A stretch of DNA of 64,000 bases, from NCBI RefSeq assembly GCF_032854445.1, contig NW_027017953.1, positions 1,180,501 through 1,244,500 on the forward strand, written 5' to 3'. The stretch's first letter is position 1. Each line of letters starts with the position of its first letter. Of this stretch, positions 4,191-38,865 are shown piece by piece. A program made the translations under genes and the position numbers. This stretch comes from Liolophura sinensis. Its lineage: Eukaryota; Mollusca; Polyplacophora; Chitonida; Chitonidae. The notes under the pieces were generated by a model. The model did not search any database and was not told the origin of the DNA. It worked only from the letters and a program-made list of their open reading frames with translations.

Positions 4191-4491
4191 ATTCTCTTAA
4201 TTCCATTGAATCCGGTCTTGGTGTCAACGACAGATTCATCCGTCTGGTCGTGTTCTTTTCTGCACAATTGCTGGTATCCATTTCTTCCCTCTGCCATAAT
4301 TGTGAACACAGACCATGTTGTTTTCCAATATAGTGCGACTTTTCGCATGTCGATCATGGTATGTCCTCTGCTACTATTGCTTATGAGTCATCGATTTATC
4401 AACATTTCAGCACGTGACAAGCTTGTTGCCTGTGGAGTGATTCTAGACTGAAAAATTAACGGATTCAGTTTGTCCTGAAGGGAACCATCTT

Positions 4492-9087: not shown

Positions 9088-9510
9088 GAATTGTGGTATC
9101 TGCTACAAGATCAGACATAATAGTTCCCAGGAGGGAAGACGGTAGTGTACATGTGGACGCTTATGGTGATAGTGCTGTTAGGGTCAAAAGACAAATTTCA
9201 GAAGGTGCGCCGACTGATGACAAGAAGCCTTTAGAGCCTCAGATTACCAGCAGCGGAGAGGCACCAACAGACGGGGCAATCACCGAGTTCCTGAACACCG
9301 AAAATGTCTCGCCCGAATCAGAGTCAGGGACCAACGAGACGACGTCTATAGCGACGCCTTGGTGGAACCGAGTAGACACGGAAACTGTGCCCTGTAACGC
9401 GGAGACGCACGAGGGATGTGACGTCACCAACTTCAAGCGCTGTTCTAAAGATGGCGTGTGCATGTGTCTGAAGGGTTACGCCTTAAATAGAGAGTATTCT
9501 CAATGTGTAG
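9088..9510 (+). CDS. SEA-gene exon: linker plus EGF-like module
   Basis: Acceptor TCTCTTTGCAG, donor GTATGT; enters with two bases completing a codon and leaves one base over. It encodes about 140 residues: IVVSATRSD start, a RVKRQ basic site (furin-like), an acidic Ser/Thr/Pro-containing stretch with a NETT glycosylation motif, then six cysteines in EGF spacing (CNAETHEGC ... CMCLKGYALN ... QCV). The module looks like the compact EGF-like domain often placed before SEA. There is no initiator Met suited to a secreted protein, so this is an internal exon. Confidence 0.85.
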
Positions 9511-12500
9511 GTATGTACCTTAATGGATCTGTCACCTCCAGCTGGAACCTTAAAATCAGTTTAAATTGTTTAAAATTCACCATAGGCGTGGACATTTCCA
9601 CATCTCAAGGAAGGTGGGGTGGGGGTAGGGGGTGATGAAAACGAAATCAGGGCTCAACATTTTAAGAGTTTTCTTCTCCATACTGGGAAGAAGAGAAGTT
9701 TACCCAGACACCCGTAAGAACGTGTTTGTTCGTGATGTAGCCTGTTTTAGGGTGTTTGTTTACAGCCTAAGGCAAATCTGTATCTACATCATGCATTTCC
9801 TCGAATTCCGGACTCAGCGTTAGGACACATTATATTAGAGGGTATACAGAGATTGGAAGATGTTTAGCTGTTACCGGATTTGATCGGAATTCCCAGCTGA
9901 AAACGACCATGGAGGGATAGAGAGACTGTGTAGGAATAGGCCATGGAGGGATAGAGAATGTGTGTAGGAATAGGCCATGGAGGGATAGACTGTGTAGGAA
10001 TAGGTCATGGAGAGATAGAGAATCTGTGTAGGAATAGGCCCTGGAGGGATAGACAGACTGTGTAGGAATAGGCCATCTGTGTAGGGGATAGGCCATGGAG
10101 GGATAGACAGACTGTGTAGGAATAGGCCCTGGAGGGATAGAGAATCTGTGTAGGGATAGGCCATGGAGAGATAGACAGACTGTAAGAATAGACCATGGAG
10201 GGATAGACAGACTGTGTGGGAATAATTCATGGAGGGATAGACATACTGTGTAGGAAAAGGAATAAAGCGTAACATAAAACTTCCCACATACAGCTGTGAA
10301 TTTATTCACATTACCTTAACCTGCAGTGACTGCTTACATCTGGGTATAACAGAATTTGTCAGAATGGAAATATTCACCACCTGGGCAAATACAGGTTTAA
10401 ATAGTAACCTGTGCATCCATTAAGGCGTTTTGAGCGGATGGGTGCGGAACGTGAGGTGTGTATTTAACAATCTCCACAGGTAGATGTTATATTTTCTGCG
10501 CAGATCTACTATCGTCTGTGTAATTTGTCCATCTGACAGGGAAAGGCTTTGCTTTGTTCTGCAAAATGATGAAACCGTCTCTTGGACGTAAATTTGGAAG
10601 GTGTACGTGGAATATCAAAAATTTCTTTGAATGGTAGAAACTTGCTACTGTTTTTTTTGTCCTGTATGTATCCAGGTCTATTCTGTACGAATGGCTTTGC
10701 ATGTTGATTGGTATCTTTTTATGTTAGAAATATTTGCGACTAGTATACGAATGTCGGATTTGACGTCAATATCCTGTCTTACCTTTTCTGTAGCTGCGCA
10801 GTATTTTCGGGGTGATATCCGGTTGTTCATTGACCTGAATCAATGGCTGAATGGAACAGATACGCTTGATGGTCGGACGCTGCTCAAGGCCCAGTTCCGG
10901 AACGCTGTGAGTTAATACACAGTAATAGCGAACCTTGATCCGCGATGCAACCCAATACACTGACCACACGCCATATATGTTGATGATTTATTGTCTTTAT
11001 TTGATTGGTGTTTTTACGCCTTACTCAACAATGCTTCACCCCTATAACTTTGGTCAACAGCTGAATGGATAAAACTGACAATCCTGCTGACGTAAACACA
11101 GAGCGAACTACCGCACTCTGAATTCAAACGCTCAGTGGTAAAAAGCCCTAATATCAAACCTACGGTACAGCTCGACCGACGGAGGATCCCGGTGTCTGTA
11201 GTTCGTCTTTCACTCATAACAAATGCGCTTCACGTAGGTGATTTATCATCTATACATATATTTACGATTGCTCAGGACTGTGCTGTTAAATTATTTGTTC
11301 ACAACTAAACTGACGTTGGCAACCCTTCTTCTAGTGCTGATGGACAGACATGTGAGAGCTTATTTTCTGGAATTTCTCAGCGCTTACGTCTTTTTAAACA
11401 AACAATCTGTATACGCTGGTCAGATCAAATGTTTGGTATTCACCGAGAATAGCTCATGTTATTAGCTTTCAGAAAATACCATATGTAGGCCTACTAATTA
11501 CAGTGTTAAAATGATTCTTAACTTTGAAAAAGTTGTAATGTAACCGGATTTACGATTTTTAGGAAATTTGAACACAAAGGTATGTGCTGACTAGGCTGAT
11601 ATTTTGCGAAAGGTAATTATTTTGGGCTATTGTCATCTATTAGCAAAAGTTCGATTGGATTTACGCCGGTATAGTCTCATTAATATAAACATGGTTACAT
11701 TTGTTAGAGTTCAATGGACGCTGTGAATGTTGAAATCATGTTACCTAACGACTTCATGAATTTAGCACTTGTTTACATGGAACTCAGATAAAAACTGTTT
11801 TGGCCCCCCTCCAGTTGTTGTCCGTTCTGAGTACGGAGGACGTAGACAGCCTGTTGGATGTTCAGGTAGTAGGAATCGAGCAGCGATCAGGAGTGATCGT
11901 CACCTTTGAGATGGTACTGGACAAGAGGGCGGCTCCCAGACAGGAAGGGCTACAGTCCACCTACCGCTTCTCCATCATGAATAACCTAGTGACCAATCAG
12001 GTCGGTTCCTACGTCATCAGAGGCACCAGTCTGGTCGTCGCTCCGGTCCGAGCTAACCTCACGGATGTGATCAACTCGCTGTCACTCAAAGGTAGGGTCG
12101 TCTGCTTCTACATAACTATTTTCATTTCTCTCATACAGATTTTACATCCAGTATAGTTTTATCGGTTCACTCTGTACTCTGAATAAAATGTGAAATTTTA
12201 AAAACTGCTGTAATTCAAAAGGCCATGTCTCTTCCGCGTCATTTAAAACTGTGGAATACATCCGCATTATTGGCGAATTGCATGTGTATCGAAGAGGGTT
12301 GAGCCAGTAGACGAATATGGGGTCATTCTAGGGGTAATGGTCAATGAGACAAGTAATAAATCGCTGATGTGTGTAAGACTTTAGTACAATGCTGTTTTTT
12401 TATACCGCCTTACTATAACCTCATCACTGGGGTATAGTATACAAATACCATTTGCCCCGCTAACAAAGTGCCAGTGTTACGTTTTTTGTCTCGACATGGC

Positions 12501-15500
12501 GTTCCAGTGAGGCATCATTATATTTGTGTAGTTACATTTTAGGGATTTTGAGATGAATTGCCGTGACATAATCTGAGCCTATTACAAGAGCTGTTTTATT
12601 CCTGGGTCGTTTGTGTCGTCTTGCAGATTTCAACCACTGTCTGGATCCCGGACATAACTATTGTGACCACAATGCCATCTGTACTAACCGGATGGGATCG
12701 TTCGTGTGTCGCTGCCGCGTCGGTTACACCGATGTCTCCCCCGACCTCCAAGCCTCACCAGGGGAACATTGCACACGTAAGATTTACCTGTTTTTGTCAT
12801 AGGTTCATCCCAAAACAGACTACCTGTATCACGTAACCGCCACACTTCCTGTGTAAATATCCTGCTTGTACTGACATGTCAGCTGTGGCCATGGGATGGA
12901 TATATAACTGCGGGAGGATTTAGACAGTCACATGACATAATACAGAAAGCTACCGCAGTTATGCAAGTGATAGGGAAAAACTATGCATACGTGTTGATAT
13001 GTTAATATGGCTCCAGGCTTATATGAAATCAATTGGAAGTACTTCAAACCTTTATATAAATAACCTTTAATGACTGAACTTTTCTCCTTTCTCAAGTGTT
13101 CGTGCAAACTTGGATAATGCCGTATGACTCTAAAAGATTTATTTACTTGATTGGTGTTTTACGCCGTTCTCAAGAATATTTCACTTATATGACGGCGGCC
13201 AACATTATGGTGGGTGGAAACCGTGCAGACCCCGAGGGAAACCCACGACTATCGGCAGGTTGCTGACAGATCTTCCCGCGCACGGCCGTAGAAGAAGCAT
13301 TGGTGAGATACTCCTGGGTCATTCCGCAGCGCTGGTACGCAAACTACCTTGGCCACGTATACATTGACTCTGAATGATGGAAAGGGGATGCTTATTCCCA
13401 TATAATTACTCATCGGTTAAAAAGACATCGGAAAGTTTCCACAAATCTCTTTGAATAATTTAATAGCTGAATGAAAAACTTTTGAAAACTAACCAGTGCA
13501 TGGACTTTCCTCCATTTCCTCCACCTATAATCAAATGAAGCAAAGAACCTACTTAATGTCTGTCAGGTTGATAGAATGCAGATTACCAGATCTCCAGATA
13601 CGTGACTAACATCGTGGCAGAAATGGAGCCATTTGAGGACGAATATGTAATACAAATAGTCTTCTTTACAGTATTTTATTGGCTCAAAAAGGTAACAGAA
13701 AGTCTTTTGCGAGAAGAGTTTATCACGTATGTTCAGCTTATAAATATTAGGGTGACCATTTTGATTCCCTAATGTAAATTCCTTCTCAGAAATTGACAAT
13801 AAAGGATTTAATTGGTCATTCATTGACTCATTGTTCATACGTGAATGTGTGTTTTTGATTCCCTGCATGATGATTGATATCCTGCATGATGATTGATTCC
13901 CTGCATGCTGATTGATATCCTGCATGATGATTGATTCCCTGCATGATGATTGATATCCTGCATGATGATTGATTCCCTGCATGATGATTGATATCCTGCA
14001 TGATGATTGATTCCCTGCATGATGATTGATTCCCTGCATGATGATTGATATCCTGCGATTGATTTCCTGCATGATGATTGATATCCTGCATGATGGTTGA
14101 TTCCCTGCATGATGATTGATGATTATAAGTAAACTGCACACTGGAATGCCATATATGTGTGTGAGTATCTATTTTGAATGGCTGAATAAACGGTCAACAG
14201 GAATAAACGGTCAGCAGGAATAAACGGTCAGCAGGAATAAACGGTATAAAAGTTAAATGCCCATTGAAACAGCAAGTCCAGTTTCGTGTTTTTAAGAAAA
14301 CCCACAAATGACAATTTCAAGTTCAAATATTAGATTCTACTGTAATGTTCTATCGTTCGCGCTAATGTCTCTTAACACCAGGCGGTTTTTCTTTCCTGGA
14401 ATAAAAATGCTCTTATTTTAGTTTTAAGATATCTTCTTACAGCCGGCCCCGATAGCACAGTAGTAGAGCGTCCGCTTCGGAAGCGGTAGATTCAGGGTCA
14501 GTCTTGGGTCGAGTCACACCTAAGACCTTAAAAGAGGAAGTTGTAATTTCCTCGCTTGTCGTTCAGCACGAAGGGGATAGTGCAACGACTGGTTGACCCA
14601 TATCAGAATAATGGCTCGGACGGGGCAACTTACTTGCCTTAGGTTAGGCGTCTCACTGAAGCAGCACTAGATAAAAGAACGGTGGAAATCCGCCCTACAA
14701 CAAGGAGGCACATTACATGCACTCTAACGATTCCTTCGTCGTCATATTACTGAAGAGTACGACATTAAACGTCAAGCACTCACTCACTCATTCACTCTAT
14801 CGGCCTGTCAATATCCCAGTGTTGAAGGTGTAATGCTGGTAACCAGTTCAACACGTTCATCGTTTCTGGTTTTTTTTCCTAATCGGTTCTGTTTTCCTTG
14901 TGATTAACGCAGTATGATAAAACCATTAAACAAGTTGATTTCTGCTCGTTATGTATACAGTGTTTCGCGATCTAATGTTTTTCTAAATAAGTTCGTTAAA
15001 ACTACAATGAATTTTCGTGCTTGAATTATGTCACCGGAAAAACTTCATGAACGATATTTGATTCCTGACGAAGGCTTTATATTACATGCCTATAGATGTA
15101 CCAAATCCATTCGTTCAATGCCCTACTCTCGTTGCGTTATAATCCTGTCTGCTCTAAGCTTCGACACTGACGTTTCCTTGGTGTGATCTGAACACTGGCC
15201 ATCATCCACATTCACTACAGATTTTTGGTTACCGGCCATAGCTGAGATTTTGAGATTTACTTAGTCTGACATAAAATCTAACACGTGGGTTCTTTGTTAT
15301 CATTGATTCAGTGTTATTTAGTGTAGTTTCACTTGCCTATCTCCCGCACCTCGACTCGCAGCTGGCCATTAAACTAAGATGTTGACCACTCTGCTTATGG
15401 CTGTCCAAGTCTCTAAGATAGGATAATCTTAAAACACCGACACGAGAATATTTTTTGGACCACAAGTAAACTCCTTTAACACCCTTCTAAACCTGCTCTT

Positions 15501-18500
15501 TCAGCAAGCACCAGAGTTTTCAAGGTTATATCGGGGAAATACGGTTTTATTGTTGGACGTGTGTATTTGTCAGTATGGCTATTGTTCAAAGTGTAAACAG
15601 TCAAACAATTTTCCGGGCAATTGGCCAATAGAATCTTTGTTTACCTAATGCTCAGGCGCAATACGAAAATCAAATGTTTTTGTGTGTCCTCTGTTGATTG
15701 GTTTATTGTGATCGGTTTGACACTGAAGGTCAGTCTGTTTACAGTAAGGTATTTGAAGAATTACTTTGTACTTATTTGGGCTAATAACGTTTATCGAGTT
15801 CAGCCGGCTCGTGCTTTTACACGGAGGGCTGTCTGTTTTCCTTTGCCTCACGATGCAAGTACTGATTTTTCTTTGTTCAAAGGTATCCATCAAGCTTAAA
15901 ACGATCTTTCTGATGTTTGTCAAAGATCCATGAACTTTCAGTCTAAAGCTAGGAAGAAATTATCAATCTATAAAATACACTAGTCATAATGATATTCATG
16001 TACATAATGGCGGGGAGTTTTGTTTCGTGTGGTATAGGCACTGGAAAAAGCTGAAGGTAGCACTAACCCTCGTTAGATCTGGCGAATTGAAGCAGACTTC
16101 AAAGGGATATTCTCAGTTTTTGTAACCCATAAATCTGACATCCGAGATATAAATGAATAATAATAATAATAATAAACACCAATGCATAAATAATAAATGT
16201 GTCGGACAAACCTGCACACATGAGTCATGAGTCACGCCCGGGTCTGCCGTATCCTAACACACGACATCATTGGTACAACGACGACTTGTTCCATGTAGAG
16301 CATACCGCTCGGCACTGACGCTGATATGATATTTAATTTGAAATAAAAATAGTGCAATTTACGAAAAATGTTCTACAATAATGTCTTGAAACTTGGGCAA
16401 GCTAACAGTCACTGATGAGTATGTTTTCTTTTCCTGCTCACAGCAACTTGTGGCTGTCAGAATAACGGTACCTGTGTGATTAACGACGGCCTTGTGTCCT
16501 GCAGGTGAGACAAAATCTGTGCTGTGGTGTCATCAGGTAATAAAAAACTTGTATTGTGGTGTCATCAAGCGAGACAAAACTTGTGCTTTGGAGTCATAAG
16601 GTAAGAGAAAACCTGTTCTATTGTGCTATCAGGTGCGACAAAATTTGTACTGTAGTGTCCTGAAGGTGAGATAAAACTCGTGCTGTGGTGTCACGATGGG
16701 GTCGTGTTCTGTAGGTGAGAGAAAACTTGTACTGTGGTGTCGCCGTGGCGTCGTGTCCTGCAGGTGAGATAAAACTTTTACTGTAGGGTGAGCATGGTGT
16801 CGTATCCTGGAAGCGAGACAAGACTTCATTGTGGTGCGCAGCTCAGCCTGTCTGAATCTTTACTCTTGCTTCCCAAGTCGTAAGACTGGCTTCTGTACTC
16901 ACCTCTCATGGGCAAACAAAGTACGGTGTCCACATTATACATATATGCGCTGAGAGTTTTAGGATTTTGTTCTTTGCGTTTTACCAAACTTTTGGAGCTC
17001 ATATCCTTATGTCCGTTGTAAGCAGACCAGTGTGGAAAGTTTATCAGTTTGCATTTTTCGAGTTAATAATCCCAAACGCTGAATTGTCACAGTGTAAATC
17101 GCAAACGTTGTGACCTTGATACGGCGCAAATATGAGGAGGACCTGTGTAGTGACCGGGTAAGGTGCAGGTGCGAGCTTTTTGTTGTGTATGATATAATCC
17201 AGCACCGGTGGTAAACAACGGAGAGAACACCGGCCCGGGAATTGTCAGAAATGTTTCCTTATTGGGCCTGTTATCCCAGCAGCACGCCTCGGGGCGAGGG
17301 CACCTGTGGCGGGCCTTGATTATGTTTGTGGTACCCTGATATTGCTATGGAACAATTGACGCCCATGTTCCCCTGTGTATATTTGCCCTTCGCAAAGAAG
17401 TTCCCCAGCGCTCACTCTATCGCCCCCAATTCTGAGTTCAGAGTCACCCAGTCCATAGACGAAGACACATCTTGTATTCACGGAGGAAATCATCCACTGA
17501 ATATATAGCATATATACAGGTTGTACATACTATGCAAAAGGTTACACAGTTTGGTTGACGATGGTTACTAGAGCGTCATCCTGGCGCTTTGCTGGCCAGT
17601 ACAACTTGTACCTTGGACGGTCGTAACTGTTCGACAGTTTTGCCAACTCCCCTCTGCAGGAACTTCATGTACCATGGACGGCCATAACTGTTCTACAGCG
17701 TTACCAACTCCAGGCCGCAGGAATAGTTGTGCAGTAGCATGGTAAGAGTTGGTCTTACTTGAAGGTATTGGTCTACAACGGGAAAATAACACAATGATGA
17801 CAGTAGTAATAACACAGTGATGACACGAGTGGTAACACATTGATGATAGTAGTGGTAACACAATGATGACAGTAGTAATAACACAGTGATGACAGTAGTG
17901 ATAACACAGTGATGACAGTAGTGATAACCCGGCGATGACAGTAGTGATAACACAGTGATGACAGTAGGGATAACACGGTGGTGACAGTAGTGATAATACG
18001 GTGATGACTGGTGATAACACTGATAAGAGTAGTGATAACACAGTGATGACAGTAGTGACAATACAATGATGACTGGTGATAACACGGTGATGACAGTTGT
18101 GATAACACAGCAAGTCTCGTCTTCTTTACGTGACTGACACATTTTACATTTTATTATATGGCCTCATCACTCATCTATTTCAGGTGTCCACAATGGTTTC
18201 TAGGAGAAAAATGTGAAATCGATGGCAAAAGTAAGTGACAAATAATCATTTCTTAATAACAATATCACTTTACATTGGTACTTCCTGCCTTGTGTCATCC
18301 CGACATAATGCTTACCGCCGTCGTGTAAGTGAAATATTCTTCAGTATGGCGTAAAGCATCAATCAAGTAAATAAATACTCCCTTTTTGAAGCAACTTAAG
18401 CTCCACTGAGTGAAATGTCTCGTTCTGCTGACTGTCACAAAACAAGAAAGAAAAATAATTACACGTGAAATACGTGTTGTTTTATACATCCAAGAGATTG

Positions 18501-21500
18501 GCCCACGGACTGCTTTCACATAAATTATCATCTTTTAACTTTTGTTAATATTTACAATTTGTACTGTCCTTCATCAGTGTTAGATTCTTTCGCGCTTTTT
18601 TAACATCCAGCAAAACAGCTTCGCAAAACTTAATATCTCTTTAACTTAATGATATTTAGATTTCGTACAAAATTTTTGGTGTTTCTTCGGCCTGTATCTT
18701 TAATTTGCTTCATGACCGTGATCTTCTGTCTGATCTGTGTCTGTATCTTATGTCTTATCTCCACAGTGTTGCTGATCGTCCTGTGCTCTGTGCTCGGGGG
18801 TCTTCTGCTCATGACACCGATCTTCTGTCTGATCTGTATCTGTATGTTATGTCTTATCTCCACAGTGTTGCTGATCGTCCTGTGTTCTGTGCTCGGGGGT
18901 CTTCTGCTCATGACACCGATCTTCTGTCTGATCTGTGTCTGTATCTTATGTCTTGTCTCCACAGTGTTGCTGATCGTCCTGTGCTCTGTGCTCGGAGGTC
19001 TTCTGCTCATGGCCGTGATCTTCTGTCTGATCTGAGTCTGTATCTTATGTCTTGTCTCCACAGTGTTGCTGATCGTCCTGTGTTCTGTGCTCGGAGGTCT
19101 TCTGCTCATGACACCGATCTTCTGTCTGATCTGTGTCTGTATCTTATGTCTTGTCTCCACAGTGTCGCCAATCGTCCTGTGCTCTGTGCTCGGGGGTCTT
19201 CTGCTCATGGCCGTGATCTTCTGTCTGATCTGTGTCTGTATCTTATGTCTTATCTCCACAGTGTCGCCAATCGTCCTGTGTTCTGTGCTCGGAGGTCTTC
19301 TGCTCATGACACCGATCTTCTGTCTGATCTGTGTCTGTATCTTATGTCTTGTCTCCACAGTGTTGCTGATCGTCCTGTGCTCTGTGCTCGGAGGTCTTCT
19401 GCTCATGGCCGTGATCTTCTGTCTGATCTGTGTCTGTATCTTATGTCTTGTCTCCACAGTGTTGCTGATCGTCCTGTGTTCTGTGCTCGGGGGTCTTCTG
19501 CTCATGACACCGATCTTCTGTCTGATCTGTGTCTGTATCTTATGTCTTGTCTCCACAGTGTTGCTGATCGTCCTGTGTTCTGTGCTCGGAGGTCTTCTGC
19601 TCATGGCCGTGATCTTCTGTCTGATCTGTGTCTGTATCTTATGTCTTATCTCCACAGTGTTGCTGATCGCCCTGTGTTCTGTGCTCGGGGGTCTTCTGCT
19701 TATCACCATGATCTTCTGTCTGGTCTTTGTCTGTATTTTATGTCTTATCTCCACATTGTTGCTGATCGTCGCGTTGTCTGTGCTCGGAGGTCTTCTGCTC
19801 ATGACCCTGATCTTCTGTCCGATCTGTGTCTGTATCTTATGTCTTATCTCCACAGTGTTGCTGATCGTCCTGTGCTCTGTGCTCGGAGGTCTTCTTCTCA
19901 TCACCATGATTTTCTGTCTGATCTGTGTATGTGCCTTCAAGAAGAAAGCCAGGTAAGGCTAATAGCTTATGTCTACTCCCTTGTGTGTGCACGACATATC
20001 TTTGTGCCTGTTACAATTATTACCTGAGAACATGAGTTGTTCGTTCCTCCGAACCTGAAACACCCTCAGCCCCATGTATCAAATGTAAAGGCTTTAATTA
20101 TGAAACAGTTATAAATAATGGGTTGACAAACAAGTCTTAGGCACTAAGTCAAGAAGTAAACAGGCCATTGAATAAAGTAACAGCTTAACAGCTTAAGGAA
20201 GCTTAAGGAAGCGTGAATTCCGAGTCAGTAGTAGCCACAGAGAGCGTCCAAATCCTCCATGCCCTATCCAGTGCTCTGCCCACCAGGACAGTCAGCAGTG
20301 TATGGATTTTCTGTGATTTGTCTTTGTGTTGACCTCAGCTGTCCAGCACACCAAATGCCTTCGTATAGACCTCAGCTATCCAGCACACCAAATGCCTTTG
20401 TCTTGGCTAAGCTGTCCAGCACATCAAATGCTTTCCTTAAATGGGTGTTGTCCGTTACATATTGGGTACTGTGTACGAATACAAATTGGGCTCTGAAGTT
20501 TTGGAATTTAGTTCCGAGGCTTTTCTGTTTCATACCACAACGAGGCACAATATTATCATTTCATCACCGAGTATGTTTACAAAAATCTTGACTATAGCGT
20601 ACGAATACGTAGATACGGTGCCTAACGACGAAAACAAACTAACCTAAAGTTACGCACTACCCATCTGTATCCCTGAGAGCTTCCTGAGGAAACACTTGTG
20701 TTTAACAGCATCTGTTTTCAAGGTAAAACGAATGTTTTATACATGTATCTGTGGTTACAAACAATTGTAAAATGCCTCAAGCCCCATGTTCTGTCTGACA
20801 TCCCGTGATCTGTCAGTATCGATATGGTCATTAAACCTCACCTTGTTCTGCATCTACATGTACAGGTGTTTCGCTTAAGAAAATTTTGCACACATAATCC
20901 CTCCCCCCCCGTCACCCCCCAAAAGAAGAATTCAATTGAAGTAAACATTTTTAAGTAGCAGATAACGACTGTCGAATTTTCAAGTTTGCTATAAACTCAG
21001 AGCACATCCTTTTTTTTATCACAGTTATTTTCTCTCCAAAGATCGATTTGGTACAGACATGTCTATACAATGAGTAATTGCCAAAGTGTTTAAATCACTT
21101 TGTTGTTGTTTTAGACGTGCAAAGCGGAGCACAGCGGCTACAATATCCAGTATAGATTCCACCCTAATTAAGCTCCCCAGACCATGGATGGATACCAGCA
21201 GATCTTATGAGGCTCCACCACGTGACCTCAGGAGGTGGAGCTACGTGTCTGAACCAATCAGATACGCGGACGAACTGGTAAGCGACGTGATAAGTGATTA
21301 CGCTACCTAACGAAACACCACATAACCAACCTCTTCATTTAATAAGAAAGTAATGGATTTGTTAATGTGGGTATTTATTTAAATATCACTTTAAACGACC
21401 GGGGAGAAGCCCTCATGAACTGAATTTGAACTCACAGAGATCGCATTGGTGAGAGGCTTCTGAATCATTATTTTGTGTACCACATTAACAGCTCGACCAC

Positions 21501-24500
21501 GGAGTCACAGGTGTATTTATACCTTATTTTTTATTAAGAACGAAATAATGCTTCAGAGCCATGCCAATTGGCACTGAATCTGGTATCGCCAGATGGCTTT
21601 AAAATTGACAACGTAACAGAAGTTGTGTAGCTTTCATGTATACAAACCACACTTGTATACCTCTTACGATAAATTCAGTTTCTGTGCTGCTGTGCTGCTA
21701 GCGTTACCCCGATTGTGGGTTAAGCAATACATATTCTGGTCATTTCACAATTCTGTCCGTCACTCATCTAATCAGTCTGTCACTCACCTAATCAATCTGT
21801 CACTGATCTAATCAACCTGTCTCTCATCAAATCATTCTGCCACTCACCAAATCAATCTGTCATTCACCTAATCAATATGTCACTCACTTAATCAATCTGT
21901 CGCTCACTTAATCAATCTGTCACTGATCTAATCAACCTGTCTCTCATCTAATCATTCTGCCACTCATCAAATCAATCTGTCACTCACCTAATCAATCTGT
22001 CACTCACCCAATTAATTTGTCACTCACTTAATCAATCTGCCACTCACTTAATCAATCTGTCACTCACCTTAGCAATCTATCACTCACCAATTCAATCTTT
22101 GAATCTTCAAATCATTCTACCAATCAACAAATCAATCCATCACTCACCTAATCAATCTGTCACTCACCTAATCAATCTGTCACTCAGCTAGTCAGTCTGT
22201 CACTCATCAGATCATTCTGTCACTCACGCAGTCAATCTGACACTCACCTAATCAATCTGTTACTCATGAGATCTTTCTGACACGCCCTTAATCAATCTGT
22301 CACTCAGCTAGCCAATCTGTCACTCATCAGATCATTCTGTCACTCACCCAGTCAATCTGACACTCACGTAATCAATCTGTCACTCTCCAGATCATTCTGT
22401 CACTGACCAAATCAATCTGTCACTCACCAAATCAATCTGACACTCACCTTATCAACCATTCACTCACCAGACCATTCGGTCACTCATCTCATCAATCTGT
22501 CACTCATCAAATCAATCTGTCACTGGCCTAATCAATATGTCTCTCACTGAATCAATCTGTCACTGGCCTAATAAGTCTGTTACTCATCGGATCTTTCTGT
22601 CACTCCCTTAAACAATCTATCACTCGAGAAATCAATCTGTCTCTCACCAAATCAATCTGTCACTCGCCTAATCAATCTGTCATTCACCTAATCAATCTGT
22701 CTCTGACCTAATGATGACTGTTGTGTTTCTGGCAGATGATTGATGACCATTACCACTCAGAGACGTTACCACTACCCCACAGTTATGACCAAACCCGCCG
22801 CCAGATGGCTTCCTATCAGGTACGCTACAATTATGCTACAGGTATGCTACATTTATGCTACATCTACATGTACTGTACATGTCTCTCTGTCTCATTTAGT
22901 GACTTGTGGGTGTTCTTATCGGTGAAGGCAAGGGGAACTAATTGTGATGAGTTCCAATTCATGTTCTTGTGACTCAGGTATGTGTACTCACCTCCTCTCG
23001 GGCTGACACTGACATCCTACATTTGTGTACGGGCCGTGCACACACCTCCTCTCTGGCTGACAGTGACATCCTACATTTGTGTACGGGCCGTGCACACACG
23101 TCCTCTCTGGCTGACAGTGACATCTTACATTTGTGTAAGGCCGTGTACTTGCCTCCTCTGGGGCTGACAGTGACATCTTACGTTTGTATACAGGCCGTGT
23201 ACTCGCTTCCTCTCGGGTTGACTGTGACACCTTACATTTGTGTACAGGCCGTGTACCCGCCTCCTCTTGTTCTGACAGTGACATGTTACGTTTATATGCA
23301 GGCCGTGTACTGACCTCCTCTCGGTCTGACAGTGATATCTTACATTTGTATATAGGCCGCGTACCCGCCTCCTCTCGTTCTGACAGTGACATGTTACGTT
23401 TATATGCAGGCCGTGTACTTGCCTTCTCTCGGTCTGACAGTAACATCTTACATTTGTATATAGGCCGTGTACTTGCCTCCTCTCGTTCTGACAGGGACAT
23501 CTTACATTTGTATATAGGCCGTGTACTTGCCTCCTCTCGTTCTGACAGGGACATCTTACATTTGCATGCAGGCCGTGTACTGACCTCTCGGTCTGACGGT
23601 GATATCTTACATTTGTATATAGGCCGCGTACTCTCCTCCTCTTGTTCTGACAGTGACATGTTACATTTGTATATAGGCCGTGTACTCGCCGCATCTCGTT
23701 CTGACAGTAACATCTTACATTTGTATATAGGCCGTGTACTGGCCTCCTCTCGGGCTGACAGTGACATATTACATTTGTACATAGGCCGTGTACTTGCCTT
23801 CTCTCGGGCTGACAGTGACATATTACATTTATATATAGGCCGTGTACTTGCCTCCTCTCTGGCTGACAGTGACATATTACATTTGTATAAAGGCCGTGTA
23901 CTTGCCTTCTCTCGGGCTGACAGTGACATATTACATTTGTATATAGGCCGTGTACTTGCCTTCTCTCGGGCTGACAGTGACATGTTACATTTGTATATAG
24001 GCCGTGTACTTGCCTCCTCTCGTTCTGACAGTGACATCTTACATTTGCATGCAGGCCGTGTACTGACCCCCTCTCCGTCTGACGGTGACATATTACATTT
24101 GTATATAGGCCGCGTACCCGCCTCCTCTCGTTCTGACAGTGACATCTTACATTTGTATATAGGCCGTGTACCCGCCTCCTCTCGTTCTGACAGTAACATA
24201 TTACATTTGTTTATAGGCCGTGTACTGGCCTCCTCTCGGGCTGACAGTGACATATTACATTTGTATATAGGCCGTGTACTTGCCTCCTCTTGTTCTGACA
24301 GTAACATATTACATTTGTATATAGGCCGTGTACTTGCCCCCTCTCGGGCTGACAGTGACATCTTACATTTGTATGCAGGCCGTGTACTGGCCTCCTTTCG
24401 GTCTGACGGTGACATCTTACATTTGTTTGCAGGTCGTGTACTTGCCTCCTCTCGGGCTGACACTGACATACTACATTTGTGTACAGGCTTTGTACTCGCC

Positions 24501-27500
24501 TCCTCTCAGTCTGACAGTGACATCTTACATTTGTGTACAGGCTGTGTACTCGCCTCCTCTCAGGCTGACGGTGACATTTTACGTTTGTGTACAGGCTGTG
24601 TACTGGTCTCCTCTCAGGCTGACAGTGACATCTTACATTTGTATAATGGACGTGTACTCGCCCCCTCTCGGGTTGACATTGACATTTTACGTTTGTGTAC
24701 AGGCCGTGTACTTGCCTCCTCTCGGGCTGACGGTGACATCTTACATTTGTGTACAGGCTGTGTACTCGCCTCCTCTCAGGCTGACGGTGACATTTTACAT
24801 TTGTGTACTGGCCTCCTCTCAGGCTGACAGTGACATCTTACATTTTGCCCCGACTCGCGGCATACTACATTAATTCTATTTAATTACTCTCAAATCATGG
24901 TGCCTGATACAGGAAGAGTTTATACCTACATCTAAAACATTGTCCGAGACAAATGGAATAAACTCTAACTGGAGTAAAGCATCGCCATTTATGTGTATCG
25001 AGGCGAAAATTTCGCTTTTCTGTATCACAAACCGTTAAGCAGGAATGGCTCAGCAGCATTAGGATTCATTTCGCCACCTCATTTTTAGTGCATAAATCAT
25101 TGTGTCACGAGGAATATCTCGAAAAACACATCTGGGACCTCTTGCAAAAATCTTTGCAGAAACTTATTCGAAAATGACACATTAAATTCACCTGAATTAT
25201 GTTCCAGGATATCTTTGAGGTATATGAAACAGTCGTGGCGTTTGTTGGCGTAATAGTATATAGAGTGTAGTCGGTTAGAAATTCTCAGGCCGTTAATTAA
25301 ATTATCCCGAGACAAGCCGAAAGGTCTACGAGTGATATGGGACTTGACCGTTAGGTTCTCTGTCCACACTTTTGATGGATTCCTCCAGAAGTGGTTGTGT
25401 ACCCGCCCCTGTATTAATTGTTATGTATAAAGCCAGCGTGTTGGACATTCAGATTGTGGCCTACTCTCTACACTGTATTAAGACCCCATAACAGCACTGT
25501 AAACCCGTGTAGACGTACATCACCCACGTAATCTTACCACAGCCTGAGTTTGTTAAGGGTGGGTGATTAGCGCGGACCCTGAGCGTGCATGTAAGTCGGG
25601 AGAGTCCAGCACTCACCGTCAACACGATGGGTTTGCACATGGCACAGGGCAATGTTGACACATCTCATTGCTATTGACTGTGTACAAGCTTTGTGTCCCC
25701 TCCTCCCACAAATTGCGTAATGTATTTGATATATGCTTAAAGGGACAAATAATGCGTAAAGCCCTTGTTTACTTTTGCGTGTTAGATCACTTAAGCTATC
25801 AAGAATTCCGTTGTTAGGAACCGGTGTTGATTTTTAGCTTTGGACAAACCATCCTTTTACTTCTAGCATAGTGATAACACTGTCTTTGTCTTTGACAAAC
25901 CGCCCTGAAGGTACCGAGATATTAGAATTACATATAATTGTGAACAGTGACACTGACAGCCTAGTTATTTTGTCACATCAGTTAACATGTGTAAGTGAGG
26001 TTCCCAGTGTATGCAGAAAGCAACCCAGCTATAAACACTGAGGATTACGCACGTGACTCCCTTTTAATTAGATGTAAATCGTTACTCATGGTAGTCTTTG
26101 TAGTTATGGAATGGTATGGAAATTTCACTTGTACTTTGATGTTCATTTGTAGTTATGGAAAGCTATGGAAATTTCCCCTGTCCTTCGGTGGTCATTTGTA
26201 GTTATGGAATGCTATGGAAATTTCACCTGTAACTCGGTGTTCATTTGTAGTTATGGAATGGTATGGAAATTTCCCCTGTCCTTCGGTGGTCATTTGTAGT
26301 TATGGAATGCTATGGAAATTTCACCTGTAACTCGGTGTTCATTTGTAGTTATGGAATGGTATGGAAATTTCCCCTGTCCTTCGGTGGTCATTTGTAGTTA
26401 TGGAATGCTATGGAAATTTCACCTGTACCTCGGCGCAAAACTAAAATGAAAACAATAATACAGAATCTGCTTAGATATCTTACATATAAGAAGTGAAACA
26501 CTTTATTTGTTTGTTGGATTCGTGTTATGCGCCGCAGACAACTTATGCGTGGGTCGTTCAGTTTATGTGTGGATGATGACGTGTAGAGATTTGAGATAGC
26601 GACTTCATCTTGCTGGGTTCGTGACAAAACTCCTGACGTATGGCCGCAACAGAAGAGGACATAGCTGGATACCAACACGCGACCTCCTGGGTGATAGGCT
26701 ATAACTTGTAGAGATTTGAGATAGCGGCTTCATCTTGCTGGGTTCGTGACAAAACTCCTGACGTATGGCCGCAACAGAAGAGGACATAGCTGGATACGAA
26801 CACGCGACCTCCTGGGTGACAGGCTATAACTTGTAGAGATTTGAGATAGCAACTTCATCTTGCAGGATTCGTGACAAAAACTCCTGACGTATGGCCGCAA
26901 CAGAAGAGTACATAGCTGGATACGAACACGCGACCTCCTGGGTGACAGGCTATAACTTGTAGAGATTTGAGATAGCCACTTCATCTTGCCGGGTTCGTGA
27001 CAAAACTCCTAACGTATGGCCGCAACAGAAGAGGACATAGCTGGATACGAACACGCGACCTCCTGGGTGACAGGTTATAACTTGTAGAGATTTGAGATAG
27101 CGACTTCATCTTGCTGGGTTCGTGACAAAACTACTGACGTATGGCCGCAACAGAAGGGGACATAGCTGGATATGAACACGCGACCTCCTGGGTGACAGGT
27201 TATAACGTAGAGATTTGAGATAGCGACTTCATCTTGCTCTGTTTGTGACAAAACTCCTGACGTATGGCCGCAACAGAAGAGGACATAGCCTAGCTGGATA
27301 CCAACACGCGACCTTCTGGGTGACAGGCTATAACTTGTAGAGATTTGAGATAGCGACTTCATCTTGCCGGGTTCGTGACAAAACTCCTAACGTATGGCCG
27401 CAACAGAAGAGGACATAGCTGGATACGAACACGCGACCCCCTGGGTGACAGGTTATAACTTGTAGAGATTTGAGATAGCGACTTCATCTTGCTGGGTTCG

Positions 27501-35141: not shown

Positions 35142-35357
35142 CTAGCGCTTGACCGGTTTCCAGTTTTCTTCGTTCCTCAGCTTCTGCTCATATTCCGCAA
35201 TCAACTGTTCCTGCTCCACAGTCTCCACTGATCCCGGTCTCAACTCCCGGATCACGTCAATGGCATCCTTGGCCGTTAGGTGGCGCTCATTCACGAGGAA
35301 GCAGGCCACCATGGTGCCAGTACGCCCTCTACCGGCTGCGCAGTGAATAGCAACGGC
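35142..35357 (-). CDS. DUSP23: DUSP23-like exon 3 (catalytic loop)
   Basis: On the minus strand an acceptor CTAAATCTTTTCAG precedes AVAIHCAAGRGRTGTMVACF. The exon ends at a TAG (35142-35144) after WKPVKR. The tail is about nine residues longer than in vertebrate DUSP23. Confidence 0.93.
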   Translation of the reverse strand, partial: AVAIHCAAGRGRTGTMVACFLVNERHLTAKDAIDVIRELRPGSVETVEQEQLIAEYEQKLRNEENWKPVKR

Positions 35358-36299
35358 CTGAAAAGATTTAGGAGAACGAAATGTGGAAATCTTCAAAACT
35401 GAAGTTGAACGATGTTAAATTCAGGTGAAAATTTAAACCGCTGGAAAATTAAACAGCTATTTTCGAAAAAAATCAAAATTCATGTGATGGTGTTTGGGAA
35501 TAAACAGTTTGAAACTTCATCCAGGTAATGTCAATCAATTCGACGAAAACTTCGATTTTTTAAAAAATTTCCACGGTTAAGTTGTGAAGGAGGGCCGTTG
35601 ATAAGGGCAAACGCTCGTGGAATCTCTGTCCTGACGCTGTATGTTTTGTATTTTGATATCGTCAATTTCAAAGGAAAGTCCTACAGGAAATCCAGCCGAT
35701 ATTTGCAAGTAACTAAGCTGTACTTACCGTTTTCTTTTTCTTGGCCTCCTTGACTATCTCTAAGAACTTTTCCACCTGCTCCATGGTTGGGGGAGTGAAG
35801 TCATGGATCTTGAGCTGCGTCCATTTCAGCTCTAAACAAAATAGTTGCAAATAATCATTAGTGTCTTTTTAAAAATTCTTTCAGAAACCAAATGCCGGAG
35901 TGATGCAGCGCTCTTAGCGCCACGCCATGTAACTACCTGTGAGCGATTTGCAGGTGTCTCGATGGCTTGGCAACTATGTAACTACGTTTACAGATTTGGC
36001 GAGTGCTCCTAGCGCTGGATTTCATTACCGTGAATTTCTGTTGTTCATCCACAAAGAAGTTTACTCAGACTAATCTGTTTGTTGTTGATTAAGCGCTGTA
36101 TTTGTCCAAGACATCTGAGGACTAAACGAACGTTCATACCTGGCACCTCCTTGACAGGTGGACTGGACTCGGCGGTGAGGGAGACCAGGTAAGTGACCCC
36201 CTGATTGACCAGGTACTGTAGGTGTTCCTTCTCCCCGGGAAACGCCAGGGCAGCCAGCAGACCCTCCGACACCCACGAAAAGTTCGGCGGAAAACTCAT
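35142..36299 (-). CDS. DUSP23: DUSP23-like dual-specificity protein phosphatase (three exons)
   Basis: Exons 36140-36299, 35728-35831 and 35142-35357 join in phases 1 and 0 to give about 159 residues, close to the 150 of vertebrate DUSP23. The start MSFPPNFSWVSEGLLAALAF and LVNQGVTYLVSLTA match the N-terminal half of that family. The middle has LKIHDFTPPTMEQVEKFLEI with the general-acid Asp in the HDFTPP loop. The catalytic loop HCAAGRGRTGT contains the nucleophile Cys and the phosphate-binding Arg of HCxxGxxRTG. RELRPGSVETVEQE is a family-typical C-terminal segment. DUSP23 enzymes are small cytosolic phosphatases acting on phosphotyrosine and phosphoserine/threonine. All key residues are present, so the gene looks functional. 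The start Met is chosen by alignment with the family. Confidence 0.93.
35358..36139. other. DUSP23-like gene introns
   Basis: Two short introns around the middle exon; no repeats or other features seen. Confidence 0.5.
35728..35831 (-). CDS. DUSP23: DUSP23-like exon 2
   Basis: Minus-strand acceptor TTTTGTTTAG, donor GTAAGT. The first two bases complete a Glu codon with the G left by exon 1. It encodes LKWTQLKIHDFTPPTMEQVE then KFLEIVKEAKKKKT. Confidence 0.92.
36140..36299 (-). CDS. DUSP23: DUSP23-like exon 1 (start codon)
   Basis: ATG at 36297-36299 on the minus strand, donor GTATGA at 36139. An acceptor-like GTGCAG lies 12 bases upstream of the ATG (36312-36316), so a 5' untranslated exon probably lies at higher coordinates, beyond the 36-bp array. 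Confidence 0.9.
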
Positions 36300-36411
36300 C
36301 CTTACCAACACCTGCACATGATCACGGCAAAAATTTATGTACATAAAGACATTTTTATATACCACTTGGCACAAAAAAAAACATTTTGTATATTCACATC
36401 TGAGCGTACAA

Positions 36412-38090
36412 AACAACGTCCTTAAGGATGTACACCTGGACATAGACAACACTATTCTTCAGAATGAAAACCTGGACATGGAAAACAACATCTTTAAAGA
36501 TGTACACCTGGACTGTAGTCAACAACATTCTTAAGAATGTACACGTGGTCACAGACAACCACATCCTTAAGAATGTACACGTGGTCACAGACAACCACAT
36601 CCTTAAGAATGAACACCTGGACATAGAAAACAACTTTCTTAATGATGCACACCTGGTCACAGACAACAACATCCTTAAGAATCAACACCTGGTCACAGAC
36701 AACAACATCCTTAAGAATCAACACCTGGACACAGACAACAACATCCTTAAGGATGTACACCTGGACACAGACAACAACGTCCTTAAGAATGTACACCAGG
36801 TCATAGACAACCACATCTATAAGCATGTACACCTGGTCACAGACAACAACGTTCTTGAGGATTTACACCTGGACAGGCAACAACATCCTTAAGGTTGTAC
36901 ACCTGGTCACAGACAACAACATCCTTAAGAATGAACACCTGGACACAGACAACCCCATCCTTAAGAATGTACACCAGGTCATAGACAAAAACATCTATAG
37001 GCATGTACACCTGGTCACAGACAACAACGTTCTTAAGATTGTACACCTAGACACAGACAACAACATCTATAAGCATGTACACCTGGACACAGACAACAAC
37101 ATCCTTAAGGATGTACACCTGGACACAGACAACCACATCTTAAAGAATGAACACGTGGACACAGACAACAACATCTATAAGCATGTACACCTGGACACAG
37201 ACAACAACATCCTTAAGGATGTGCACCTGGTCACAAAAACAATGTTCTTAAGAGTGTACACCTAGACACAGACAACCACATCTATAAGCATGTACACCTG
37301 GACACAGGCAACAACACCCTTAAGGATGTACACCTGGACACAGACAACAAACTCCTTAAGGATGTACACCTGGTCACAGACAACAACATCCTTAAGGATG
37401 TACATCTGGACACAGACAACAACGTCCTTAAGGATGTACACCTGGACACAGACAGCAAACTCCTTAAGGATGTACACCTGGTCACAGACAACAACGTTCT
37501 TAAGATTGTACACCTAGACACAGACAACCACATCTATAAGCATGTACACCTGGACACAGACAACAACATCCTTAAGGATGTACACCTGGACACAGACAAC
37601 AACGTCCTTAAGGATGTACACCTGGACACAGACAACAAACTCCTTAAGGATGTACACCTGGTCACAGACAACAACGTTCTTAAGATTGTACACCTAGACA
37701 CAGACAACAACATCTATAAGCATGTACACCTGGACACAGACAACAACATCCTTAAGGATGTACACCTGGACACAGACAACAAACTCCTTAAGGATGTACA
37801 CCTGGACACAGACAACAACGTCCTTAATAATGTACACCTGGACACAGACCACAAACTCCTTAAGAATGTACACTTGGACACAGACAACAAACTCCTTAAG
37901 GATGTACACCTGGTCACAGACAACAACGTCCTTAAGGATGTACACTTGGACACAGGCAACAAACTCCTTAAGGATGTACACCTGGTCACAGACAACAACG
38001 TCCTTAAGAATGAACACCTGGACACAGACAACAACGTCCTTAATAATGAACACCTCGACAGAGGCAATAACATTCCTAGGGCTGAACACC
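36412..38090 (-). repeat. Minisatellite, 36 bp unit, upstream of the DUSP23-like coding exon
   Basis: About 46 copies; on the minus strand the unit is GTTGTCTGTGTCCAGGTGTA then CATCCTTAAGGATGTT. Each unit therefore has a TCCAG|GTGT acceptor-like motif followed by AAGGATG, the same order as GTGCAG|GTGT...AAGGATG at the start of the real exon. Variant units cluster (CACAAACTCC, ATCTATAAGC). Long frames on both strands are repeat by-products. Confidence 0.96.
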
Positions 38091-38865
38091 TGTCATATCC
38101 TTGATCTTTATTTAAATTTTTTTTGAAAAGAGTTAAGTAATTAGAACTGTTTAGTGGACTCTCTGAATCTGGTGTTCAGGCCCTCTGACGTCAAGTGTAG
38201 TTTGTCGCAGCCTGTAAAGGCTTTTTAATGTTGGAATAGCTCGTGAATAATGCCCTAATAAAATTGGCCTGTAGGTTAAATTAAAGAATAAAGGAAAGTT
38301 GATGCAGTGCACCCTATCACAAGCAATACTGTCCACAATATCCACATTACGAACATAAGTATAATACCATGGCCATGACTGTTTTATGTTACACGAGTGC
38401 ATTGATTTCCCTTACTATTTATCTAGTAAATTTGTTAACTTAAATCTGAAAAATATACACCTAACTTTGCGTGGTACAATGCCATACCATCACATACAGC
38501 TTGAACTTTTCACTACAACATATCAGGACAATTAAGCTAGCGTGACTACCATTTTATAGCTGTGATTGCTGGAAGTGAAGTCATAGCATTTTGTTACCTT
38601 GGTAACCTCAAGGAAGTTGGGATGTAGCACTGACAAAGCCGTTTTCAGTTCTACCCAACATAGATCCAAAACTCTGATATATATTAACTAGGTGAAAACT
38701 AACAGTGCACAAATTCATAGCGTAACAACAACCTAAAATGTCTGTGTTGCAGTATTAGCCAATCACTGCTCCTCCTCTCTTCAGTTTTCAGGCAAATATT
38801 GAACCTAATTGCCTGGGTTGTGCATATGTAACCTTCAGTTGTGCGCTGTACGATGGGTTGTGTCC
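38091..38865. other. No gene seen
   Basis: Intergenic or 5' flank of the DUSP23-like gene; no supported feature. Confidence 0.4.

Follow-up and report, generated by a model that had tools for sequence, protein, structure and literature searches.

The 64,000-nucleotide stretch of Liolophura sinensis DNA analysed here (the window) contains part of a gene that appears to encode a membrane protein with EGF-like domains. The chiton assembly, of 609.5 Mb in 632 scaffolds, was published as Liolophura japonica (PMC11068029), a species name since corrected to L. sinensis (PMC12441733). We modelled nine exons, all on the + strand, between 9088 and 22819. This model, which covers that span only and so is part of the gene, has AG before and GT after every exon and reads through 471 residues in a single frame. 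Exons 9088-9510, 10794-10906, 11815-12091 and 12627-12776 come first, and the last of these carries an EGF_CA domain (Pfam PF07645, E=1.2e-7). A second EGF-like domain, recognised by its cysteine pattern and matched only weakly in Pfam, is split over two exons, with its first half in 16444-16504 and its second half in 18184-18230 (donor GTAAGT). The presumed true membrane-helix exon, 19856-19952, is entered in phase 1 and left in phase 2 at the donor GTAAGG (19953), and is followed by the cytoplasmic-tail exons 21115-21277 and 22736-22819. After the EGF domains the protein has one hydrophobic block, then KKKARR and then a polar tail, and with 19856 as acceptor the model contains exactly one membrane helix. 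A 133-aa segment that the initial annotation called SEA has no Pfam match even at E<=10, and this name is unconfirmed.

When the genome was searched with the joined 329-aa protein, at least 112 matches came up, a lower bound as 122 of 177 candidates were scored, and among these no paralogue with a single, unexpanded helix exon was found. The strong matches were this locus and its second copy, described below. Matches elsewhere were weak (best E 2.6e-5) and lay mainly in the EGF region; a few weak ones extended into the helix, and none of those listed was confined to the helix or tail.

The boundary between the last intron before the membrane-helix exon and the exon itself lies in a tandem array. 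TRF places this array at 18710-19932 (+), with 12.4 copies of a 99-bp unit and 91% matches. The unit consists of the 3' end of the intron and the 5' part of the membrane-helix exon, that is, a possible branch point, a pyrimidine tract, an AG and then the start of the exon. There are 12 acceptor positions at an exact spacing of 99 bp, the last base of the dinucleotide running from 18766 to 19855. Copies 1-10 (18767-19755, +), with their exon-like halves, all have AG, and in the acceptor alignment only number 11, before 19757, has AT instead (19755-19756, +), so that 11 of the 12 positions keep AG. The reading frame through the units is broken once, by a TGA at 19033-19035 within copies 1-10. 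The remainder of the exon and the donor follow the last unit only, and in a scan of 18767-19952 for sites matching 7 or more of the 9 consensus letters, CAG/GTAAGG at 19953 was the sole donor-like site. Tandem alternative exons of the Dscam type likewise place a long row of similar coding copies inside a single gene. There, however, every copy is flanked by an acceptor and a donor, whereas in the array only the last unit has a donor, and so the copies of the array do not have the acceptor and donor apiece that cassette or mutually exclusive exons would need.

Acceptors 4-10 and 12 would give stop-free nested exons of 9, 8, 7, 6, 5, 4, 3 and 1 hydrophobic blocks, while acceptors 1-3 run into the TGA. 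The two-block exon is missing because acceptor 11 is AT. The nested exons of more than one block are 295-889 nt long, compared with 97 nt for the exon from the last acceptor. The initial annotation had described the amplified unit with its acceptor and helix coding sequence, the eleven in-frame AGs with a donor only after the last copy, and the nested exons from 19064 on (19757 excepted) with the first three acceptors meeting the TGA; the TRF array, acceptor listing and donor scan bear all of this out. It also placed the array correctly, except that the start is at 18710 and not at 18767.

Splice strength was gauged by pyrimidine fraction, branch-point-like motifs and donor consensus count, and not by a trained model. 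The 20-nt tracts of acceptors 1, 6 and 10 are identical to that of the last acceptor, and a CTGAT lies 33 nt upstream in 9 of the 12 acceptors, whereas that of the last acceptor is 45 nt away. By motif, therefore, 19856 is not the best acceptor of the series. Its nearest competitor in the window lies 198 nt upstream, because acceptor 11 is AT.

The array recurs 25 kb upstream on the same scaffold, and a 200-N scaffold gap separates the two copies of the locus. In the alignment, the first base past this gap corresponds to position 4252 of the upstream stretch, and the base immediately preceding the gap has its counterpart within the window. As the homology begins and ends exactly at the gap, the two contig ends overlap (C14:1154752-1205059, about 25 kb on either side of the gap). 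The mismatch between the copies in kilobases 0-14 of the window is 0.8-4.8% per kb and mostly 1-2%, close to the published Liolophura heterozygosity of 1.24% (PMC11068029), and we therefore read the duplicate as an unpurged haplotype overlap. Given the end-to-end overlap, the second copy very probably represents the other haplotype. A true 25-kb tandem duplication was also considered and is disfavoured, both ends of the homology coinciding with contig ends at the gap. Genes in the 25-kb overlap may be annotated twice.

Agreement between the two copies varies along the locus. In the right flank (two stretches, 1.8 kb) there are 3 mismatches and nine small gaps, in the far-left flank (two stretches, 3.8 kb) 48 mismatches and four gaps, and in the 0.6 kb immediately to the left of the array 7 mismatches and four gaps. 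The right-flank mismatch is only 0-0.4% per kb, unlike that of the left flank. The second array has 15.4 copies and 15 acceptor positions, 11 with AG and 4 with AT. The copy number thus differs (12.4 against 15.4) between what we take to be two haplotypes, while the penultimate acceptor is AT in both. The copy-number variation that the initial annotation had proposed to look for among individuals is in this way already present in the assembly, as 12 against 15 acceptor positions. The first seven units of the second array are 99 bp long, and units 8, 10 and 13 have 1-2 extra bases. The second copy also has two 1-bp insertions in the last exon and has lost the donor GT after it. We infer that its gaps and indels arose as consensus errors, the coverage being 14X and a contig end close by; if they are real, that allele is broken and would not splice as modelled.

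Comparison of the units suggests how the array changes. Internal units differ by a mean of 7.4 substitutions within the window array, 8.4 within the second array and 8.8 between the arrays. Units two apart are more alike than adjacent units, and the internal pairs without any substitution lie two or six units apart within one array (W2/W8, A6/A8 and A7/A9). The last unit, with its exon, shows 0 substitutions between the two copies, where internal units differ by 7-9 on average, and it stands 8-13 substitutions over 80 nt from the internal units of the window. The internal units are thus homogenised and the boundary unit is left out.

The internal units show no sign of coding constraint. In 22 of the 25 internal units of both arrays (the other three were dropped as their length is not 99), variants comprise 8 synonymous and 21 nonsynonymous changes and 1 stop, small numbers to be set against the proportions of 0.306, 0.674 and 0.020, respectively, predicted by neutral mutation of the consensus unit. 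Variation among the internal copies is of the kind expected under neutrality. Two forward frames and one reverse frame of the consensus unit have no stop, and further ORFs of 455 aa (+, in a different frame) and 442 aa (-) run through the array. An open frame is therefore expected as a by-product of the unit. T-rich DNA and the genetic code account for a pyrimidine tract that doubles as hydrophobic codons. As many as eight extra blocks would come with the nested exons; their mean hydropathy is about 2.75, and neither a charged residue nor a polar loop lies between them.

The surroundings are rich in minisatellites. Tandem arrays make up 25.4% of the 64-kb window, 62.5% of C14:300001-310000 and 20.8% of C14:800001-810000; around 61 loci centred on exons elsewhere, the flanks have 0.5-2.3%. 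These control loci (6 myosin, 30 kinase and 25 fn3) are the best-scoring matches of each search, and several of the fn3 loci are neighbours. Some array was present in 25 of the 61, with a top coverage of 15.7%, and in 3 of the 61 an array lay inside the domain match or within 120 bp of it. None of the 61 had an array crossing the edge of the domain match, a weak control since domain edges are not exon edges. The scaffold may be subtelomeric or some other special domain, and the density of minisatellites perhaps explains its lack of chromosome placement. Three of the 18 splice sites of the model (19856, 16504 and 22819) lie inside arrays. We asked whether arrays are specially drawn to splice sites and found no enrichment, 4.9 being expected where arrays cover 27.2% of the gene span (P(>=3)=0.90). 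One of these arrays, at 16494-16809 (+), repeats the donor region of exon 16444-16504, in nine donor-like copies of which 7 have GT. By eye, the other haplotype apparently has eight copies, one fewer.

Minisatellites that span intron-exon boundaries have been described in amphioxus as 'mirages', in the globin genes BflGb6 and BflGb9 and in Adh3 (PMC3087553). In BflGb6 the repeat is reported to comprise the 3' end of an intron and the 5' part of an exon, with 6 and 3 units in different haplotypes. Many but not all copies are said to retain the splice signal, the cluster boundaries to escape homogenisation and donor-side cases to occur too, and RT-PCR is reported to suggest regular splicing (all PMC3087553). 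The chiton array is similar in four features of its sequence, and we therefore assign it to the same kind: it spans a boundary, the acceptor at 19856 and the greater part of exon 19856-19952 both falling in 18710-19932; the splice signal is widespread among its copies but not universal (AG in 11/12 and 11/15); its copy number differs between haplotypes; and its internal units are homogenised while the boundary unit is not. It differs in its host, a mollusc and not a cephalochordate, in having a unit divisible by three with a frame open across nine blocks, in its 12-15 copies, and in the membrane helix encoded by its exon half. No mirage repeats outside amphioxus turned up in the literature surveyed, which was only partly aimed at this question, and the chiton case would extend them from amphioxus to molluscs. 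It has been proposed that new introns and exons can arise from boundary duplications of this sort (PMC3087553).

Our results suggest, with a high degree of probability, that this is a length-polymorphic, boundary-spanning minisatellite of the mirage type, most likely a passenger in the gene, with the last acceptor dominant. A minisatellite would have grown across the intron-exon boundary by tandem-repeat turnover. Since there is a donor-side array in the same gene and the scaffold is rich in minisatellites, a chance landing on a splice site is plausible. Splicing would normally join 18230 to 19856 and give one membrane helix, and the upstream copies would be intronic passengers rather than a selected generator of isoforms, although they may now and then serve as cryptic acceptors. 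The passenger reading is supported by the nine-exon model, with its one frame and single helix from 19856, by the haplotype overlap with 12.4 and 15.4 copies, by the neutral-like variation of internal units next to a last exon free of substitutions, by the AT at the penultimate acceptor of both copies, and by the shared anatomy with amphioxus. Several observations weigh against it, namely that the last acceptor is not the best by motif, that the frame is open over nine blocks, that the right flank has almost no mismatches, and, if real, the lost donor and the insertions of the second copy. On balance the array has the look of a rapidly evolving repeat under which the protein stays largely the same.

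The initial annotation had proposed instead that the array could produce isoforms with different numbers of membrane segments. Several acceptors would then share one donor to give 1, 3 and up to 9 hydrophobic blocks, and the anchoring or topology of the protein would vary by splicing and by allele length. The retention of AG in 11 of 12 copies, the one phase, the one donor, the stop-free frame from 19064 on and the similar tract strength at all acceptor positions are what such a generator would show, and yet we regard it as unlikely. Its internal units vary without sign of coding constraint, the other copy has lost AG from 4 of its 15 positions, and the open frame is a by-product of the unit, in which two further frames are equally open. 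The added blocks have no charged residue or polar loop, the nested exons are several hundred nucleotides long next to 97 nt for the last, and the amphioxus precedent is reported to be regularly spliced (PMC3087553). The proposal is not supported by these data, and we treat it as unproven rather than refuted. One version of it, a working series in which the single donor could be joined to various acceptors of the same phase to give anchors of 1 to 9 blocks over a range set by the allele, seems to us very unlikely; if true, it would be a protein-topology VNTR read through splicing.

It is also possible, if decidedly unlikely, that inner acceptors are used appreciably and yield mostly useless or aberrant transcripts, which end at the stop at 19033 or carry long hydrophobic runs, so that allele length would tune the amount of good mRNA and not the form of the protein. 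The competing acceptors do look intact, and in human ABCA7 an effect of intronic VNTRs on splicing has been reported (PMC5954066). The VNTRs of ABCA7 and TERT (PMC11830802) resemble the chiton array as intragenic tandem arrays of variable length that may influence splicing, but are apparently intronic, whereas the chiton unit includes an acceptor and coding sequence. The 198 nt between 19856 and its nearest competitor argue against appreciable use of the inner acceptors. That the assembler created the array length or the second copy we consider highly improbable. The initial annotation had allowed for a collapse or expansion of the array in assembly, and two copies of the region, separated by a gap, do occur in a single scaffold, the second copy having clustered 1-bp indels near a contig end. 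An unpurged haplotype overlap accounts for this duplicate. Long 99-bp arrays with their own variants occur in both copies, and HiFi reads with a reported mean of 8.3 kb (PMC11068029) exceed the 1.2-1.5 kb of the arrays. With 12 and 15 near-identical acceptor positions and one donor, the locus also offers a natural experiment on spliceosome choice among many similar 3' splice sites.

Other arrays occur in and near the gene. Among the neighbouring arrays, some change length from one copy of the locus to the other and some keep it. The array at 13855 has 14.3 against 21.9 copies in the two copies of the locus. A 20-bp array at 21759-22712 has 47.7 copies in both; its unit has a branch-point-like CTAAT, and 24 bp separate its end from the acceptor of exon 22736-22819. 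The donor of this exon is repeated by a 22-bp unit at 22817-22862 (2.1 copies). A 54-bp array at 22982-24845, with 34 copies, is open for 562 aa (+) and 505 aa (-), and many of its units have acceptor-like ends, TACAG/GC. Further along, ORFs at 35142-36458 (-) contain the motif HCAAGRGRTG and presumably resemble a small dual-specificity phosphatase; a 36-bp array at 36412-38092 adjoins them. Elsewhere in the assembly, contig C99 (108,685 bp) is a series of mitochondrial genomes that recur about every 15.5 kb, with seven COX1 matches. Its ORFs, named by eye, read cox3-nad3-nad2-cox1-cox2-atp6 on one strand and nad1-nad6-cob-nad4L-nad4-nad5 on the other.
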